Source: Microbulbifer taiwanensis
GTDB taxonomy: Bacteria > Pseudomonadota > Gammaproteobacteria > Pseudomonadales > Cellvibrionaceae
Direction: 5' to 3'
Length of the DNA stretch: 64,000 nucleotides
Assembly (NCBI RefSeq): GCF_014904815.1
Contig: NZ_JACZFR010000012.1
Coordinates: 1-64,000 of the forward strand
Shown: positions 36,436 through 62,464 of the stretch, in pieces
Layout of the letters: the number at the start of each line of letters is the position of its first letter
Numbering within the stretch: position 1 is the first letter of the stretch
Translations under genes and position numbers: made by a program
Notes under the pieces: model-generated
The model's database searches: none
What the model was told of the DNA's origin: nothing
Seen by the model: the letters and a program-made list of their open reading frames with translations, nothing else

Positions 36436-37470
36436 ATGGATATCACAGAACTCCTCGCCTTCAGCGCCAAACAGAACGCCTCGGACTTACACCTCTCCGC
36501 CGGCCTGCCGCCGATGATCCGCGTGGACGGTGACGTGCGCCGCATCAACCTGCCGCCGATGGAGCACAAGCAGGTGCACGGCCTGATCTACGAGATCATG
36601 AACGACAAGCAGCGCAAGGATTACGAGGAGTTCCTGGAGACCGACTTCTCCTTCGAGGTGCCCGGCGTGGCGCGCTTCCGGGTGAATGCCTTCAACCACA
36701 ACCGCGGTGCCGGCGCCGTCTTCCGGACGATTCCGTCCAAGGTGCTGACCATGGAAGACCTGGGCATGGGCCAGGTGTTCAAGCAGATTTCCGATACTCC
36801 AAGGGGTCTGGTACTGGTCACCGGACCCACCGGTTCCGGTAAGTCCACCAGCCTGGCGGCGATGATCGACTACATCAACGACAACAAGTATGAGCACATC
36901 CTCACCGTCGAGGACCCGATCGAATTCGTGCACGAATCCAAGAAATGCCTGGTGAACCAGCGCGAGGTGCACCGCGACACCCACGGTTTCGCCGAAGCCC
37001 TGCGCTCGGCACTGCGTGAGGACCCGGACATCATCCTCGTGGGCGAGATGCGAGACCTGGAAACCATCCGCCTGGCCCTGACCGCCGCCGAGACCGGCCA
37101 CCTGGTATTCGGCACACTGCACACCACCTCCGCCGCCAAGACCATCGACCGGGTCGTCGACGTCTTCCCGGCCGAGGAGAAAGCCATGGTGCGCTCCATG
37201 CTGTCGGAATCCCTGCAGGCGGTGGTCTCGCAGACACTGCTGAAGCGCAACGGCGGCGGCCGCGTCGCGGCCCATGAGATCATGCGCGGCACACCGGCGA
37301 TCCGCAATCTGATCCGCGAGGACAAGATCGCGCAGATGTACTCTGCCATCCAGACCGGCGCCAGCGTCGGCATGCAGACCATGGACCAGTGCCTGCAGGA
37401 TCTGGTGGAAAAGCGCATCATCGCCCGCGAGGTCGCGCGCGAAAAGGCCAAGATGCCGGAGAACTTCTAA
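36436..37470 (+). CDS. pilT: PilT, type IV pilus retraction ATPase
   Basis: A hexameric secretion-type ATPase of 344 residues, the standard PilT length. Walker A is GPTGSGKST (about 131-139), the Asp box EDPIEFVHESKK, Walker B DIILVGEMRDLETIRLALT, the His box ETGHLVFGTLHTTSA, and the AIRNLIRE motif (AIRNLIREDKIAQ) characteristic of PilT. It powers pilus retraction for twitching. A good AAGG precedes the start. pilU follows after 44 bases. Confidence 0.98.
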   Translation: MDITELLAFSAKQNASDLHLSAGLPPMIRVDGDVRRINLPPMEHKQVHGLIYEIMNDKQRKDYEEFLETDFSFEVPGVARFRVNAFNHNRGAGAVFRTIPSKVLTMEDLGMGQVFKQISDTPRGLVLVTGPTGSGKSTSLAAMIDYINDNKYEHILTVEDPIEFVHESKKCLVNQREVHRDTHGFAEALRSALREDPDIILVGEMRDLETIRLALTAAETGHLVFGTLHTTSAAKTIDRVVDVFPAEEKAMVRSMLSESLQAVVSQTLLKRNGGGRVAAHEIMRGTPAIRNLIREDKIAQMYSAIQTGASVGMQTMDQCLQDLVEKRIIAREVAREKAKMPENF

Positions 37471-46321: not shown

Positions 46322-46392
46322 GTAGGATGGGCAAAGCGCAGCATGCCCATCAACCGCGACATGATGGGCACGCTGCGCTTTGCCCATCCTAC
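46322..46392. repeat. 71-base near-perfect palindrome between dapF and the DUF484 gene
   Basis: Outer arms 46322-46342 and 46372-46392 are perfectly complementary over 21 bases (GTAGGATGGGCAAAGCGC and its complement), and inner arms ATGCCCATCA and TGATGGGCA extend the stem, leaving a loop of about nine bases. The wording GGATGGGCAAAGCGC is found in dispersed intergenic repeats of many proteobacteria. It would form a very stable RNA hairpin inside the dapF-xerC transcript. Confidence 0.8.
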
Positions 46393-54922: not shown

Positions 54923-55075
54923 TTGAGTCTCTCCGTCACCTACAGCCGCGCACAGCTCGGCGTATCCGCCCCGCAGGTCACCGTCGAGACCCACCTGGCC
55001 AACGGCCTGCCTGCCTTCCAAATGGTAGGGAAGGTTAACCCTAAAGTATTATTTCTAATAAAATCAATAAGTTAG
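54923..55075 (+). pseudogene. comM: comM (yifB) 5' fragment, cut by island insertion
   Basis: The first 36 codons of the Mg-chelatase-like competence helicase ComM are present: a TTG start behind AAGGATG, then SLSVTYSRAQLGVSAPQVTV and GLPAFQMVG, matching the ComM N-terminus (E. coli MSLSIVHTRAALGVNAPPIT ... GLPGLTMVGLPE). After the Gly at 55030 the family sequence stops, and 13 unrelated codons lead to a stop at 55075. No other part of comM occurs in the rest of the window. ComM is a branch-migration helicase used in natural transformation. Confidence 0.88.
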
Positions 55076-56193: not shown

Positions 56194-57045
56194 GTGCCTG
56201 AAAAAACTAACAAAGTAAGCCTTCCAGAAGCAGTAAATAATTGCACCGGTGATGCCGCCAAAGTTGAACACCCATTGGAGTCTTTAGGGGAGATCCCGAC
56301 AACTCCCGTATGGTATGCGTCCAATAAGGCAAAGTTTGATCAGTTAGCCAAGGCATTTAAAATAGCCGAGTCCGATATTAAGAGTGCGGAACTGTCGGAC
56401 AAATACGAAAATGGGATTCTTGTCCCCGCAGTAAACGAACTAAGATACTGCAGTTACCACGTTATCAAGGCAATTAGCGCCAATAATGCTGCCGATCAAA
56501 GAGATCAACTGTATCGCGGGTTAAGACATTGCGAGCGAGCCAGCTACGACGCCTTGGAGTTAGGGCTAACGACTTATCTAAAGAAAATTGATGAATTTAG
56601 AGCAATTTACAGGGATAAAAATGTCGTCATGAGTAAAGTTATTCCCGGATATCCTGAGGATATGAGGGAGGCGTCAAAAGCTCAGGCACTTTTAGGGAAA
56701 AATTTCAAAGACAAAACCGAAATCTTTGAAGAAGTTAGAGAATACCTAAGTAAAATCAAAGATATATACCTGAAGTTTAATGAAGCTGAAGACGACCTTA
56801 ATACGGAGGCACGACAGGCGAATCAAAGTTTAAAATACACAAAACTTGCCCTTGCAGCCACCGTACTCATAGCGATAGCAGGCTGGACCAAGGTGTTTTA
56901 CTCTCCGTCGCCACAAATTGTGCCAGACGCTGTCCAACCAGCAAACAAAGCAAAGCCCATAACAACTATCGACGAGGCAGATATAGGAGCTAGCCAACCT
57001 GCCGATAGAGCAAAAATAGATGCTCCTACTGATCGTACTAGGTGA
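56194..57045 (+). CDS. Hypothetical helical protein with one C-terminal membrane helix
   Basis: About 283 residues from GTG 56194 (MPEKTNKVSLPEA), with GAGG nine bases upstream; GTG 56179 is also open. The N-terminal two thirds are helical. AVNELRYCSYHVIKAI and YRGLRHCERASYDALEL contain R-x(3)-H and R-H-C-x-R-A-x-Y-D patterns shared, as I recall, with an uncharacterised HEPN-like group. A membrane helix follows (about 221-240, LALAATVLIAIAGW) and then a Pro/Lys/Ala-rich tail. No function is proposed; a membrane-anchored effector or sensor is possible. Confidence 0.6.
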   Translation: MPEKTNKVSLPEAVNNCTGDAAKVEHPLESLGEIPTTPVWYASNKAKFDQLAKAFKIAESDIKSAELSDKYENGILVPAVNELRYCSYHVIKAISANNAADQRDQLYRGLRHCERASYDALELGLTTYLKKIDEFRAIYRDKNVVMSKVIPGYPEDMREASKAQALLGKNFKDKTEIFEEVREYLSKIKDIYLKFNEAEDDLNTEARQANQSLKYTKLALAATVLIAIAGWTKVFYSPSPQIVPDAVQPANKAKPITTIDEADIGASQPADRAKIDAPTDRTR

Positions 57046-57121
57046 ATTCAGGTTTGTTGTTTAACCGGCAGCACAATTTGTCTCAATCTCCCATCTGTTA
57101 GATCACAAGAATATCCGGAAG

Positions 57122-57142
57122 CCCGACAATATTGTCGGGTTT
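57122..57142 (+). terminator. Possible terminator: perfect 18-base palindrome with T tail
   Basis: CCCGACAAT and ATTGTCGGG (57122-57139) are directly joined and followed by TTTCG, 77 bases after the stop of the membrane-anchored hypothetical gene. A protein-binding palindrome is the alternative. Confidence 0.55.
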
Positions 57143-57265
57143 CGAATTATCCAGTGCTACGCTTTGCAATCCATCCGTTCCCGGATTCCGTTGACTTACC
57201 AAGAAGAATATAGGTAAGCCAATCAGTGGACCTCACCAAAAATTATTAATAAGTAAGAAGCACAA

Positions 57266-58422: not shown

Positions 58423-58472
58423 GCTCACCTTTGTTGATTTCGCACATATATTTATCCAATGTGCAAAATCGG

Positions 58473-61229
58473 CTATTCGCATGACAGGATTGAAGCATCC
58501 AGACCATAACGCTCCAATTCACGGGATTTCTTTAAGTTGAAGATACCGACCACCCCACCCGTGTAGAGCGTACAGACTCGCATAGGGTCGCCAGAACGCG
58601 GATCAAGCCCACTGTCTGGATAGCCATTCTTCGCCAGAACTGATACAACGTAGTTCAATACAGCGTGATATTGTTTCTCACTGGCTATTCGCGCTTTCAT
58701 GAAAAGGTAGACACGGAAACTTCCACTGGGGCTGTAATTGGAGCAGACCACAAACGAATGCTTGATGATACCCTTTTGTTTATTTTTCCGAGTTGGATTA
58801 AAGATTTTCACGAAGTCGTCCGGCGTCAAGCATGATCCATAGAAATCCAGTATTACAAAATCAGCTGAAACATTCTCGCCTTGTTCGATTCCGGCAGATA
58901 TGCGCGTCATATCCTTCTCATTGTGGAGAAATTCCTTGTGCTCACGCTCCACCCACTTGGCAAACTTAACGGGTGGAAGAGTCTTCAATTTTGGCTTATC
59001 GCGCTTCCCACTGTGGACCGCACAAGAAACGCCTTCCCGCTCTTCCACCGCACTGCCACTAGAGAATCCATTGACACCGTGGGTGCTACTGATTCCCGTG
59101 AAATTCCCTTCACATGTTGAATCAATTCCACAAGTGGCGGGAGCGGAGCGCCCCCCGGCGAAGCCGGTAAACGAGGTTACAATGTTGGAATTTGGTTCAA
59201 ATGGCTGAAGGCTAGTCACTATGCGGGATTGCACCATTTCACCTGTACTATAAAAGCTATTAGGTACAAGAAATTTGGTGCAAATTCGCATGGCTAAAGG
59301 GATGTAGCAACCTTGACCTTTGGATGAACATTCACCGCTTCGCGGGGTGGTCGCTTCGCGCCCGCTTTTATCTGTCGAATCAGCTTCACATGTGAAGGGA
59401 GCGAAGCGCCCCCCGGCGAAGCTGGTTAAGGTGAAACCACTGGAAACCTGTTGAAACTGCTGAAAGTCAGCAATCATGCGGATTTGCACCGAACCTGCTG
59501 TACTATAAAGACTATTAAACACAAGAAAATTGGTGCAATCCGGCATAGTTACAGGGATATAACCATTTCGACCACTGGAACCAATGTTACGCATTTTCCG
59601 GCGATGCCGCCGGGTGGTCGCTCCGCTCCCACAATCCTTTGTTGAAGTCGAACTTGTTGAATCAACTTCACTAGGCTCCAGAAGGTGACAGGCGAACTCA
59701 TTTTCATCAATATGGCGGATTCGCACCACTTGGTCCGGATATCCACTTGCGAACCGCTTTGCTGTTTCCACCGCAGAAGAGCGGTCCATTAGGAAAACGG
59801 TAACAACGGCTTCACTTTTGTCATCTCGGATGGAAGAGCGCGAAACAGTCTGATACACAGTGTTTAGTGTCATGTCTTGATAGATGAGATCATCCGTATA
59901 ACCCAATGCTGCAAGCATAGATTGCTGTTTCGGCGTGTTGTTCAGCGCGGCATCAAAAACTATCACGTTCTTGTCTTGAAACTTGTTGGAACCATGCTCC
60001 TTCGCACTGATTACTGTGCAATTGTCCAAACAGGTTATTTCACGGTCTTCACGCCGGTCATTGTTGGTCGCCAGCAGGAAGTTAGGGTTCCCCATCTTGC
60101 GCAGTTCTCGCATTAGCTTATTATCAACATTCGTTCCATGACCCTTCAAGTATTCCTTACTGTTACGGCGCTTTTCGTCATCTGATATGACGTAAATGAA
60201 TTGCAGGCGGTCAAGGCAATTAGGTTTATGATTACCCCCATAGCGAAGGGAGTTCTTGTACACGGCGTTCCGTAAAAACTTCAGTTTATGGATACTAGAA
60301 AATCGGTGATGAAACATAGACAGGGAAAAATCGGCACTGATCACTGTGCAGCTGTTCCAGCCACTCAAAAAACCGCTATTCAACTGAGATAGGAAGTAGG
60401 TTTCACCATCTTCAGAGTCGTATTTCTTCTTTAACGGCTTCCCTATCATTTCCCATTGCGAATTTTTTACATAAACAGTTTCAACGCGACTCAGTACAGC
60501 ATATAGAAACTTTCGTTCTGATTGGTGATATGTTTGCGCGTGATTTTCCAAATGATCCCGCAATTCTCTTACAGAATTTGGAATAACAGTAAAAACTCGG
60601 TCATCAATGGTCTTCTGTTTTACGCGACCATTCTTGTAATATTGGACTTTGCCATCCTTAATGACGGGAACTTCCGACTTGCAATGTGAAACAAGTCGAT
60701 CAAGTTTCACATAGTCCTTTACGGTTTCTGGGAAGTTATGAACCTTTGTATTATGCGGCTGAAACAATGTCGGGAGTTCGTCAAAGTATAAATCAATGTC
60801 CCAACGCTGAGGACGTTCCAACCGCGATAGATGTTTGAACGTCTCTTGAGTGATCAACAGGATTCCGGATGCTCCGGCGATTCCTGCTGTACAGTTCTTC
60901 TTCCCGGTATAACGGTTGATCCACTGTTGAGTCTGTGCGCTTACGCTCAAATCTTTCGTGGCGCGTTTGTGGTTAAGGTTTTCAATCTTCTTTTCTGGGC
61001 AACCAGCGTCAAGCAGCCCCTGTTCCCACTGGTTAAGGTGTTCAATCTTGTGGCAGACGACAATCTGGGGATTGAACCGGGAACGGTTCTTCACCAGTTC
61101 ATAGGCTAAGGTTGACTTGCCGGAGCCGGTAGCGGCTTCCAGACAGCCAAGGGGCGGAAAATTGCCGATTTTATTTCGTGCTAAATACTCTTGCATTGTG
61201 GACCTTGTTATTGTTTTTATGTTGGTCAT
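58473..61229 (-). CDS. Large SF2 helicase with primase-polymerase-like C-terminus
   Basis: A 918-residue protein. Residues about 20-480 form a superfamily 2 helicase: motif I EAATGSGKST (31-40), Ia IVVCHKIEHLNQW, motif II YFDELPTL (DE at 150-151), motif III-like VISADFS and motif VI YQTVSRSSIR (QxxxRxxxR, about 459-468). Residues about 515-720 are repetitive and Ser/Thr/Gly-rich. Residues about 750-918 look like an archaeo-eukaryotic primase domain: FVILDFYGSC (about 789), HSFVVCSNYSPSGSFRVYLF and GLDPRSGDPMRVCTLYTGG (about 875). A replication initiator of the element is the likely role; the primase reading is remembered pattern only. Confidence 0.72.
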   Translation of the reverse strand: MTNIKTITRSTMQEYLARNKIGNFPPLGCLEAATGSGKSTLAYELVKNRSRFNPQIVVCHKIEHLNQWEQGLLDAGCPEKKIENLNHKRATKDLSVSAQTQQWINRYTGKKNCTAGIAGASGILLITQETFKHLSRLERPQRWDIDLYFDELPTLFQPHNTKVHNFPETVKDYVKLDRLVSHCKSEVPVIKDGKVQYYKNGRVKQKTIDDRVFTVIPNSVRELRDHLENHAQTYHQSERKFLYAVLSRVETVYVKNSQWEMIGKPLKKKYDSEDGETYFLSQLNSGFLSGWNSCTVISADFSLSMFHHRFSSIHKLKFLRNAVYKNSLRYGGNHKPNCLDRLQFIYVISDDEKRRNSKEYLKGHGTNVDNKLMRELRKMGNPNFLLATNNDRREDREITCLDNCTVISAKEHGSNKFQDKNVIVFDAALNNTPKQQSMLAALGYTDDLIYQDMTLNTVYQTVSRSSIRDDKSEAVVTVFLMDRSSAVETAKRFASGYPDQVVRIRHIDENEFACHLLEPSEVDSTSSTSTKDCGSGATTRRHRRKMRNIGSSGRNGYIPVTMPDCTNFLVFNSLYSTAGSVQIRMIADFQQFQQVSSGFTLTSFAGGRFAPFTCEADSTDKSGREATTPRSGECSSKGQGCYIPLAMRICTKFLVPNSFYSTGEMVQSRIVTSLQPFEPNSNIVTSFTGFAGGRSAPATCGIDSTCEGNFTGISSTHGVNGFSSGSAVEEREGVSCAVHSGKRDKPKLKTLPPVKFAKWVEREHKEFLHNEKDMTRISAGIEQGENVSADFVILDFYGSCLTPDDFVKIFNPTRKNKQKGIIKHSFVVCSNYSPSGSFRVYLFMKARIASEKQYHAVLNYVVSVLAKNGYPDSGLDPRSGDPMRVCTLYTGGVVGIFNLKKSRELERYGLDASILSCE
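59119..59674 (-). repeat. In-frame palindromic repeats inside the helicase-primase gene
   Basis: Two full units and one partial lie head to tail. Landmark CGCCCCCCGGCG recurs at 59149 and 59407, exactly 258 bases apart, followed each time by similar text (CTGTACTATAAA and ACAAGAAA TTGGTGCAA). On the protein level each unit opens with E/G-x-DST and ends AGGRxAPxTC, about 86 and 94 residues. Each junction is an imperfect palindrome: 59335-59421 has GCTTCGCGGGGTGGTCGCTT paired with AGCGAAGCGCCCCCCGGCGA around TCACATGTGA. All stay in frame. Confidence 0.8.
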
Positions 61230-61909: not shown

Positions 61910-62464
61910 ATGGCAATTGTTGGCTATGCACGGGTCAGCACCACCGGGCAAAGTTTGGATGTGCAGCTTGATAAACTCAATGCCCACGGCTGCGAACGAA
62001 TCTTCAAGGACAAGCTTTCAGGCACCACAGCACAGCGTCCACAGCTTCAGGAGTGTCTTCGCTACCTAAGGGACGGGGACACCCTTGTTTGTACCAAACT
62101 GGACCGTCTGGCGCGTTCTACGCTACACCTACACCAGATTGCCGATGACCTGCAATCAAGAGGGGTAGAGTTTGTTGTGATTGATCAGGCTATTGACACC
62201 AGCACTTCCACCGGGAAACTTATGTTCGGCGTCTTGGGGGCTATCGCTGAATTTGAAACTGCGTTGAGGCATGAACGCCAGATTGAAGGCATTGAGAAAG
62301 CCAAGGCGAACGGAGTCCGATTTGGACCAAAGACTCTCCTTGATGATTCCCAGATTAAAGAACTAAAGGCAAAGCGTGACTCAGGCGCGTTGATTCGGGA
62401 CTTGATGAAGCATTACCGGCTAAGTAAGGCAACTGTATACCGGTACCTGAAAGAGTCCGTCTAG
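61910..62464 (+). CDS. Small serine recombinase (resolvase/invertase type)
   Basis: A 184-residue resolvase/invertase. The catalytic Ser10 lies in VGYARVSTTGQSLDVQL, Arg8 and CTKLDRLARS (Arg66, Arg69) complete the site, followed by the E-helix (LMFGVLGAIAEFETAL) and a C-terminal helix-turn-helix (GALIRDLMKHYRLSKATVYR). It is the standard short form, not a large serine integrase, so it probably resolves cointegrates, keeps the element monomeric or inverts a segment. A good AGGAAAC precedes the ATG. Confidence 0.92.
   Translation: MAIVGYARVSTTGQSLDVQLDKLNAHGCERIFKDKLSGTTAQRPQLQECLRYLRDGDTLVCTKLDRLARSTLHLHQIADDLQSRGVEFVVIDQAIDTSTSTGKLMFGVLGAIAEFETALRHERQIEGIEKAKANGVRFGPKTLLDDSQIKELKAKRDSGALIRDLMKHYRLSKATVYRYLKESV

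Follow-up and report, generated by a model that had tools for sequence, protein, structure and literature searches.

The window analysed here, 64,000 nt of Microbulbifer taiwanensis (GCF_014904815.1, contig NZ_JACZFR010000012.1, forward strand positions 1–64,000), contains a palindromic block within the coding frame of a helicase gene located on the minus strand at 58473–61229. The block (59132–59639, minus strand, about 168 codons) is made up of four alternating half-units, identified by four profile matches, self-BLAST and folding, and is real, statistically strong and in frame. Its features are more those of a functional DNA site than of a protein sequence under selection. Our preferred reading, held tentatively and at somewhat less than an even chance, is that it is a cis-acting DNA site within the gene, possibly the replication origin of the genomic island that carries it, and that it encodes a dispensable linker, as in pSK41 rep. 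More broadly, it is most likely either a DNA-level site of a mobile element or the product of neutral expansion. In-frame palindromic DNA inside a coding gene had been proposed at this position in an earlier note made from the sequence; this was borne out, and the structure proved to be larger than first described.

Architecture of the palindromic block

The block can be described as one half-unit of about 125 nt, A, repeated in the order A, reverse complement, A, reverse complement, which gives two tandem units of 258 nt and at the same time one imperfect hairpin of 492 nt. Against a profile built from the same four sequences, half-units A1 (59514–59639, minus strand), B1 (59390–59508, plus strand, reverse orientation), A2 (59259–59372, minus strand) and B2 (59132–59253, plus strand, reverse orientation) score 83–92 bits each. 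In self-BLAST of 9 kb, 59373–59579 matches 59115–59324 as a direct repeat (70.5% over 210 columns, E 1.3e-23), and 59139–59630 aligns with itself in inverted orientation (65.5% over 513 columns, E 2e-8); both matches are seen because the array is A-B-A-B, with B approximately the reverse complement of A. In the whole window the inverted self-match has an E of 1.3e-5, and is outscored by two paralogous gene pairs and by a palindrome at 46322–46392 that is described at the end. The array was not reported by Tandem Repeats Finder at its default threshold.

The 258-base period given in the earlier note is that of the direct repeat above; there are only two tandem units, and the spacing is 258 for one repeat pair and 267 for the second. 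The span it gave, 59119–59674, fits the core defined here, and the hairpin it placed at a unit boundary, 59335–59421, is real, being the apex of the larger 492-nt palindrome. This central GC-rich hairpin extends in the fold from 59332 to 59425, with 64% GC. A short direct repeat is found before unit 1 (59652–59674), between the units (59370–59392) and after unit 2 (59112–59134), each on the plus strand, with the minus strand encoding VDST, ADST, and IDST, respectively. An assembly artefact was considered as the source of the block and dropped because the half-units differ by 20–26% at aligned positions.

Folding of the 492 nt as DNA gives −113 kcal/mol (z −8.9) and as RNA −227 kcal/mol (z −11.3), with 0 of 100 shuffles equally stable in either case. 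For 31 stretches of 492 nt sampled from the window and shuffled 12 times each, z went no lower than −4.7 (at 61001); the sampled stretch at 59001, which partly overlaps the block, had a z of −4.1.

The half-unit alignment has 133 columns, of which 18 are gapped, 43 invariant, 35 singletons, and 12 with at least three states. Grouping of the columns pairs A1 with A2 and B1 with B2 in 18 cases, the arms of the long hairpin in six, and the arms within a unit in one. The simplest reading of this pattern is that one palindromic unit arose first and that a tandem duplication came later. It bears on the main rival to a DNA site, a neutral foldback expansion, in which an inverted duplication of about 125 nt in an unconstrained linker would have been followed by tandem duplication, the product persisting as in-frame and harmless. 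This is a genuine possibility, accounting for most of the same facts, and we place it slightly below the DNA-site reading. The 18 columns favour it, as they point to tandem duplication of an already palindromic unit. The excess of long-hairpin over local-hairpin columns, six to one, is a weak hint of retained pairing and counts the other way, as does the usual instability of long palindromes in bacteria.

Iteron-like 16-mers, AT-rich cores and GC-rich ends

In each unit two facing 16-mers (consensus TGGTGCAAATCCGCAT) flank a 39-nt core of 28% GC. Those of unit 1 are at 59531–59546 (plus strand, three mismatches to the consensus) and 59476–59491 (minus strand, one mismatch), on either side of the core at 59492–59530; those of unit 2 are at 59276–59291 (plus strand, one mismatch) and 59221–59236 (minus strand, two mismatches), with the core at 59237–59275. 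An outlying 16-mer at 59713–59728 (minus strand, three mismatches) is possibly a degenerate copy, which would suit neutral expansion; its surroundings score 30–33 against the half-units, with shuffle maxima of 33–41, and so are at the control limit. Five matches to TGGTGCAAATCCGCAT thus lie inside 508 nt, four of them forming inverted pairs around the AT-rich cores, with a sixth distant at 37403, compared with an expectation of 0.73 per window. There was no match to the 16-mer in L040, a sequence that also holds a gene of the same island (see below).

The outer ends of each unit are GC-rich hairpins (76–81% GC). Seven of the 10 GCGNAGC motifs found on both strands of the 9-kb island part of the window are inside the block, here counted as 502 nt; such motifs fold into very stable DNA mini-hairpins. 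The invariant columns of the half-unit alignment are clustered (permutation p 0.003), chiefly in the GC-rich end and the 16-mer, which argues against purely neutral expansion.

Reading frame and protein-level constraint

Within the block the reading frame runs without a stop for 167 codons, whereas each of the other five frames is interrupted by 3 to 15 stops. The chance of finding no stop in 168 codons of random sequence of the same composition is 4e-4. Selection for an open frame is likely rather than proved, because 17% of unconstrained simulations, starting from one open unit and applying the observed number of substitutions, also stay open; neutral expansion draws some support from this figure. 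A spliced or ribosome-bypassed insert was dropped as an explanation, because such an insert would not need 167 open codons.

Constraint on the residues themselves is not visible within the reach of the comparison between units. Over 84 aligned codons there are 78 differences, evenly spread over the codon positions (28/25/25), and NG86 estimates are 0.42 for nonsynonymous (dN) and 0.32 for synonymous (dS) divergence. Amino-acid identity is 40/84, with a mean of 37.6 for random placement, and 28% of simulations reach 40 or more. The lack of detectable amino-acid constraint between units is also what neutral expansion would predict.

The AGGRxAPxTC and xDST sequences described in the earlier note are present in the translation, the first twice (AGGRFAPFTC and AGGRSAPATC) and the second three times, in the short direct repeats listed above. 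Their recurrence could be taken as the mark of an ordinary functional protein repeat in the linker, but with codon positions evenly hit, identity at random expectation, homologues without such an array, and a linker in which a Pfam scan found no family at its cut-off, this is the least probable of the explanations considered. A device at the RNA level also seems quite improbable. Here the mRNA hairpin would slow ribosomes between the two domains, or would be cut by a double-strand RNase, uncoupling them, and the stability of the RNA fold is in its favour. As DNA, however, the two strands form the palindrome with similar stability (−113 and −116 kcal/mol), the AT-rich core between inverted 16-mers would be superfluous, the kept frame suggests translation through the block, and an Rfam scan of the window gave no family at gathering score.

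The helicase gene and its homologues

The gene is an open reading frame (ORF) of 918 codons whose product comprises a superfamily 2 (SF2)-type helicase at about residues 1–505, a long linker, and a C-terminal domain at about residues 787–918, tentatively primase-like; these borders are estimates. The helicase part matches ResIII (E 3.4e-5) and the phage families phrog_2467 (E 1.5e-20, residues 30–485) and phrog_31024 (E 4.5e-15), both listed with unknown function. Judged by the phrog_2467 match, the protein is a helicase of a phage family, possibly with an end like a primase. A PDB sequence search with the whole protein gave nothing at E ≤ 1. A 20-nt direct repeat (95%, spacing 60) is found at 60970–61049, within the helicase part of the gene.

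Searches with the 918-aa protein found only its own genome, both among 38 relatives and among 369 genomes of the class (own included in each), and no match in plasmids, genome contigs, or viral contigs. Among phages there was one match, Agrobacterium phage Atu_ph07 (two records, E 1e-4), and an alignment query recovered it again in the form of a viral contig. The Atu_ph07 protein, used as query in turn, reaches T4-like phages and plasmid copies in Sinorhizobium and Methylobacterium (143 phage and 5 plasmid records). An eight-sequence profile matched in six of 398 genomes of the phylum (E ≤ 1e-8) and five of 369 genomes of the class (E ≤ 1e-5), own included in both, the other four in the class being short matches. 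A search with phrog_2467 found matches in 112 of the 369 genomes, and among the matches listed these are short stretches except for the gene studied here.

Three homologues have a C-terminal extension: L119 (876 aa), L120 (563 aa, with the helicase start outside the open frame), and the Atu_ph07 protein (762 aa). From the MDR/MDK helicase motif to a C-terminal LDxD-like motif there are 198, 142, and 147 aa in these, compared with 313 aa in the window gene, or 145 aa when the 168 codons of the block are subtracted. These lengths are an estimate because the landmarks were chosen by eye; hhalign pairs the C-terminal landmarks of the window gene and L119/L120, but the automatic four-sequence alignment does not join them. 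Because all three homologues have a shorter linker and no comparable array, the palindromic units look like an addition to the gene rather than an ancestral protein repeat. The range of 142–198 aa among homologues shows a variable linker length, as neutral expansion would have it.

The C-terminal parts of L119 and L120 match phage families named DNA primase (E 1.2e-4 and 3.2e-6), and match a family named DNA helicase about equally well (1.9e-4 and 3.1e-6). The placement of the repeats between helicase and primase parts in the earlier note holds for the helicase linker, and is much less secure for the primase.

Search for further copies

The earlier note also raised a mobile hairpin element, tolerated in a flexible linker. 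As an explanation this would take the form of a palindromic element of the Rickettsia palindromic element (RPE) or miniature inverted-repeat transposable element (MITE) type that entered the gene in frame and was later doubled, with the three short direct repeats (at 59112, 59370, and 59652) as target duplication. The approximately 168 codons that are extra relative to the homologues, the long inverted arms, and the three direct-repeat copies would all fit, and in-frame insertion into ORFs is described for RPEs in the available text of two papers (PMC10969869, PMC3767692).

The block was compared with the genome it comes from, giving six matches, three of them the locus itself and three of 26–40 nt at E 0.05–0.7. 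Among 48 Microbulbifer genomes (own included), with at most 12 candidates scored per genome, 13 have a match at E ≤ 0.1, and outside the locus these cover only 19–38 nt. The half-unit profile matched in 28 of the 48 at E ≤ 0.5, again with the own genome included; in this search 73 of 434–1045 first-look candidates per genome were scored, under stricter filters. Outside the own genome the matches amount to 54 weak places in 27 genomes, the best at E 0.005. Twelve of these were examined. A single dispersed repeat of a different type accounts for the 11 found in G057 and G006, and the remaining place, in G038, is an attC-like site. With the block as query there was nothing in phages at E ≤ 1 or in plasmids at E ≤ 0.1. 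A gapped pattern, which needs exact matches, was found in no stretch of the viral contigs and in nine stretches of the genome contigs; of these nine, the half-unit profile (E ≤ 10) recognised only L132, where two short hits (E 0.018 and 0.42) cover the GC-rich end.

Overall, neither the genome itself nor 47 congeners (with part of their first-look candidates scored), phages, plasmids, or viral and genome contigs yielded a convincing second locus, metagenomes being outside the search, and mobility of the palindrome itself is unsupported by these comparisons. A length of about 20 nt would also be unusual for a target duplication, and the three copies are equally well explained by tandem duplication. 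An inserted mobile element is accordingly rated unlikely, and the block is not classed as an RPE because the multi-copy feature of these elements was looked for and not found.

The dispersed repeat in G057 and G006 (L099–L107) is at least about 110 nt long and ends in GGGGTTTTCC; its weak match to the half-unit profile is through AAATGGCTGAAAGC-like letters. It is perhaps a miniature transposon.

An attC site was rejected as the identity of the block, since neither TAACGCC nor GTTARRC occurs on either strand within 59000–59800, where there are two GTTRRRY 7-mers only, in the same orientation. What the block does share with the attC sites of integron arrays in the same genome is GGGAGCGNAGCGACC-type hairpin letters. 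A 15-mer common to the block and these arrays has 37 matches, four of them in the block, with eight for a reversed-pattern control. The integron cassette arrays of this genome are at L034–L039 and L041 (G000 contigs C54, C56, C57, C11, C52, C48, and C1). Their attC-like sites are about 130 nt long, mostly with TAACGCC...GTTARRC or similar boxes and with GGGAGCGNAGCGACC at the apex, and one is also present in the congener G038.

Comparison with known systems

The published systems compared here are characterised as in the available portions of the cited papers. Palindromic DNA in coding frames is already a known kind, including RPEs, enterobacterial repeat units, and PARCELs. RPEs are palindromic sequences of about 100–150 bp, in frame within ORFs and in many copies; the block is likewise hairpin-forming, palindromic, and in frame, and has three homologues without a comparable array, but it is one 500-nt block at a single locus, where RPEs are found at several unrelated ones. 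The enterobacterial ERIC/RU units are small inverted repeats of 103–168 bp that are dispersed and can fuse in frame with genes (PMC2759123); dispersed copies of the block were not found. Structurally the nearest palindromic coding DNA appears to be the PARCELs, tandem coding repeats of 25 residues with dyad symmetry and a conserved protein motif, known from many taxa (PMC2996958). Their authors point out that tandem like palindromes can form extended palindromic structures, and also that in some taxa the repeats are linked to mobile elements. The block differs in having a unit of 86 codons, unconserved amino acids, and one known locus, and the linker has no PARCEL-type Pfam match at E ≤ 1. In the literature, as represented by titles, the openings of abstracts, and few subscription papers, we recognised no helicase gene with a palindromic array in frame.

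Replication origins within coding genes form a second group. In pSK41 the origin is within rep, where four Rep boxes lie midway along the gene, and the segment encoded there is a linker with a dispensable protein sequence (PMC5703833). In repABC plasmids oriV is inside repC and is described as having neither iterons nor DnaA boxes (PMC3155836), and in lambda the origin is in the middle of O, with four 19-bp iterons (PMC3985674). As in these origins, an AT-rich stretch adjoins the repeats, here as two 39-nt cores of 28% GC, and as in pSK41 rep the block encodes a linker with no visible amino-acid constraint. The five iteron-like 16-mers of the window gene are candidate sites, of a kind that the repC origin itself lacks. 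Unlike origins of the lambda and pSK41 type, the block has its repeats as inverted pairs in a nested 500-nt palindrome and is in a helicase gene of another family.

A third comparison is with SCCmec, described as having a large serine recombinase, a helicase of its own, and a putative origin that contains both inverted and direct repeats (PMC7581432). Like SCCmec and SaPI modules, the present island appears to be an integrative element that carries both a large serine recombinase and its own helicase. In SCCmec the putative origin is downstream of the helicase gene, where here the block is inside it.

A possible origin within the gene

On the DNA-site reading, the block would be an origin or initiation site at which the integrative element's own helicase assembles during replication of the element. 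The inverted 16-nt repeats would be bound by the helicase protein or a partner, the 39-nt AT-rich core that they enclose would melt, and on the strands so exposed the GC-rich ends would fold into hairpins, at which loading or priming could take place. The block would be translated only because the frame must hold, its product serving as a flexible, dispensable linker between two protein domains. In favour of this reading are the nested palindrome in its open frame, the lack of visible constraint on the residues, the clustering of invariant columns, the inverted 16-mer pairs around AT-rich cores, the concentration of GCGNAGC motifs, the published origins inside replication genes, and the place of the block as main repeat cluster of an island that has a large serine recombinase and a phage-family helicase; binding, melting, priming and replication of the element itself are inferred. 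A more specific form of this proposal is a doubled palindromic origin module in the element's own helicase gene, with inverted iterons, an AT-rich core, and GCGNAGC mini-hairpin caps, which can still be translated as it expands by inverted and tandem duplication and so is origin and dispensable linker in one. We regard this fuller version as doubtful. To our knowledge no origin has been described for this helicase family.

Several observations weigh against an origin or other functional site. A site within the gene is not conserved in the helicase family, with arrays missing from the homologues' genes: a comparable array was not found in the gene DNA of L119 and Atu_ph07, and self-BLAST of L119 and L120 gave no such array, the one palindrome seen in L120 being 25 nt long and lying beyond its open frame. 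The block contains no DnaA-box-like TTWTNCACA, a lack it shares with repABC origins as described; the window has one, at 58460, with 1.8 expected. The cumulative GC skew of the island shows no turn at the block. The number of 16-mers is not independent evidence because they are part of the repeat unit. The units share at most 18 identical positions in a row, a length reached in 7% of simulations and so not significant. Finally, the C-terminal domain cannot be firmly identified as a primase by sequence comparison. It has no significant BLASTP match to L119 and L120, hhalign of this part with L119/L120 is weak (E 0.063 over 69 columns), and AlphaFold models of it are poor, with mean predicted local distance difference test (pLDDT) values of 46 and 41.

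If the block is an origin, a single DNA segment answers two demands, serving as a folding or binding site in its own right and merely staying open as coding sequence, and one gene would then be enough to test directly whether a little-known element integrated in comM replicates. If it instead arose by neutral expansion, it shows cleanly how palindromic duplication can lengthen the linker of a protein in the absence of amino-acid selection, and it warns against labelling every in-frame palindrome an RPE-like mobile element.

The genomic island

Past 54.5 kb the GC content drops from about 62% to about 46%. A 5′ piece of comM/yifB (54923–55033, plus strand; NF007365 positions 1–36, E 8.9e-10) marks the left edge of an island, and the remaining YifB/ComM (positions 43–497 of the same profile, E 1.2e-161) is in an ORF from G000:C45:70044, with the right island edge near G000:C45:70020, beyond the window. 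With the start of the gene in the window and the remainder past G000:C45:70044, comM/yifB is, on these profile matches, split by an island of about 15 kb, whose exact ends were read by eye. The gene is a known target of islands, for example AbaR, according to the available text of one report (PMC7508600).

At the far end of the island is a 651-aa large serine recombinase (PF07508, E 1.6e-13), with relatives in two other genomes of the 48 at E ≤ 1e-30 (32–33% identity). Its match to CcrB (E 8.4e-7) is 28 bits, below the cut-off of 900. A small serine resolvase/DNA invertase (61910–62464, plus strand; PF00239, E 2e-46) and a helix-turn-helix regulator are also in the island. A 145-aa protein of the same island (L040:6669–7106, minus strand) matches the Tse2 family of ADP-ribosyltransferase toxins below threshold (PF18648, E 3.5e-4; 21.7 bits, with a cut-off of 26.6), and has no match in an NCBIfam scan.

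When the 15-kb island is compared with itself (E ≤ 0.2), the only repeats longer than 30 nt come from the palindromic block, which is the main repeat cluster of the island. The others are a 26-nt palindrome, one 20-nt pair, and one 29-nt pair. The 26-nt palindrome (57118–57143) is near-perfect and follows a 288-aa gene ending at 57045; it is perhaps a terminator or an operator. The palindrome at 46322–46392 is 88.9% self-complementary over 72 columns (E 1.5e-17) and is located directly after an ORF that we take to be dapF. It is possibly a dispersed intergenic element.

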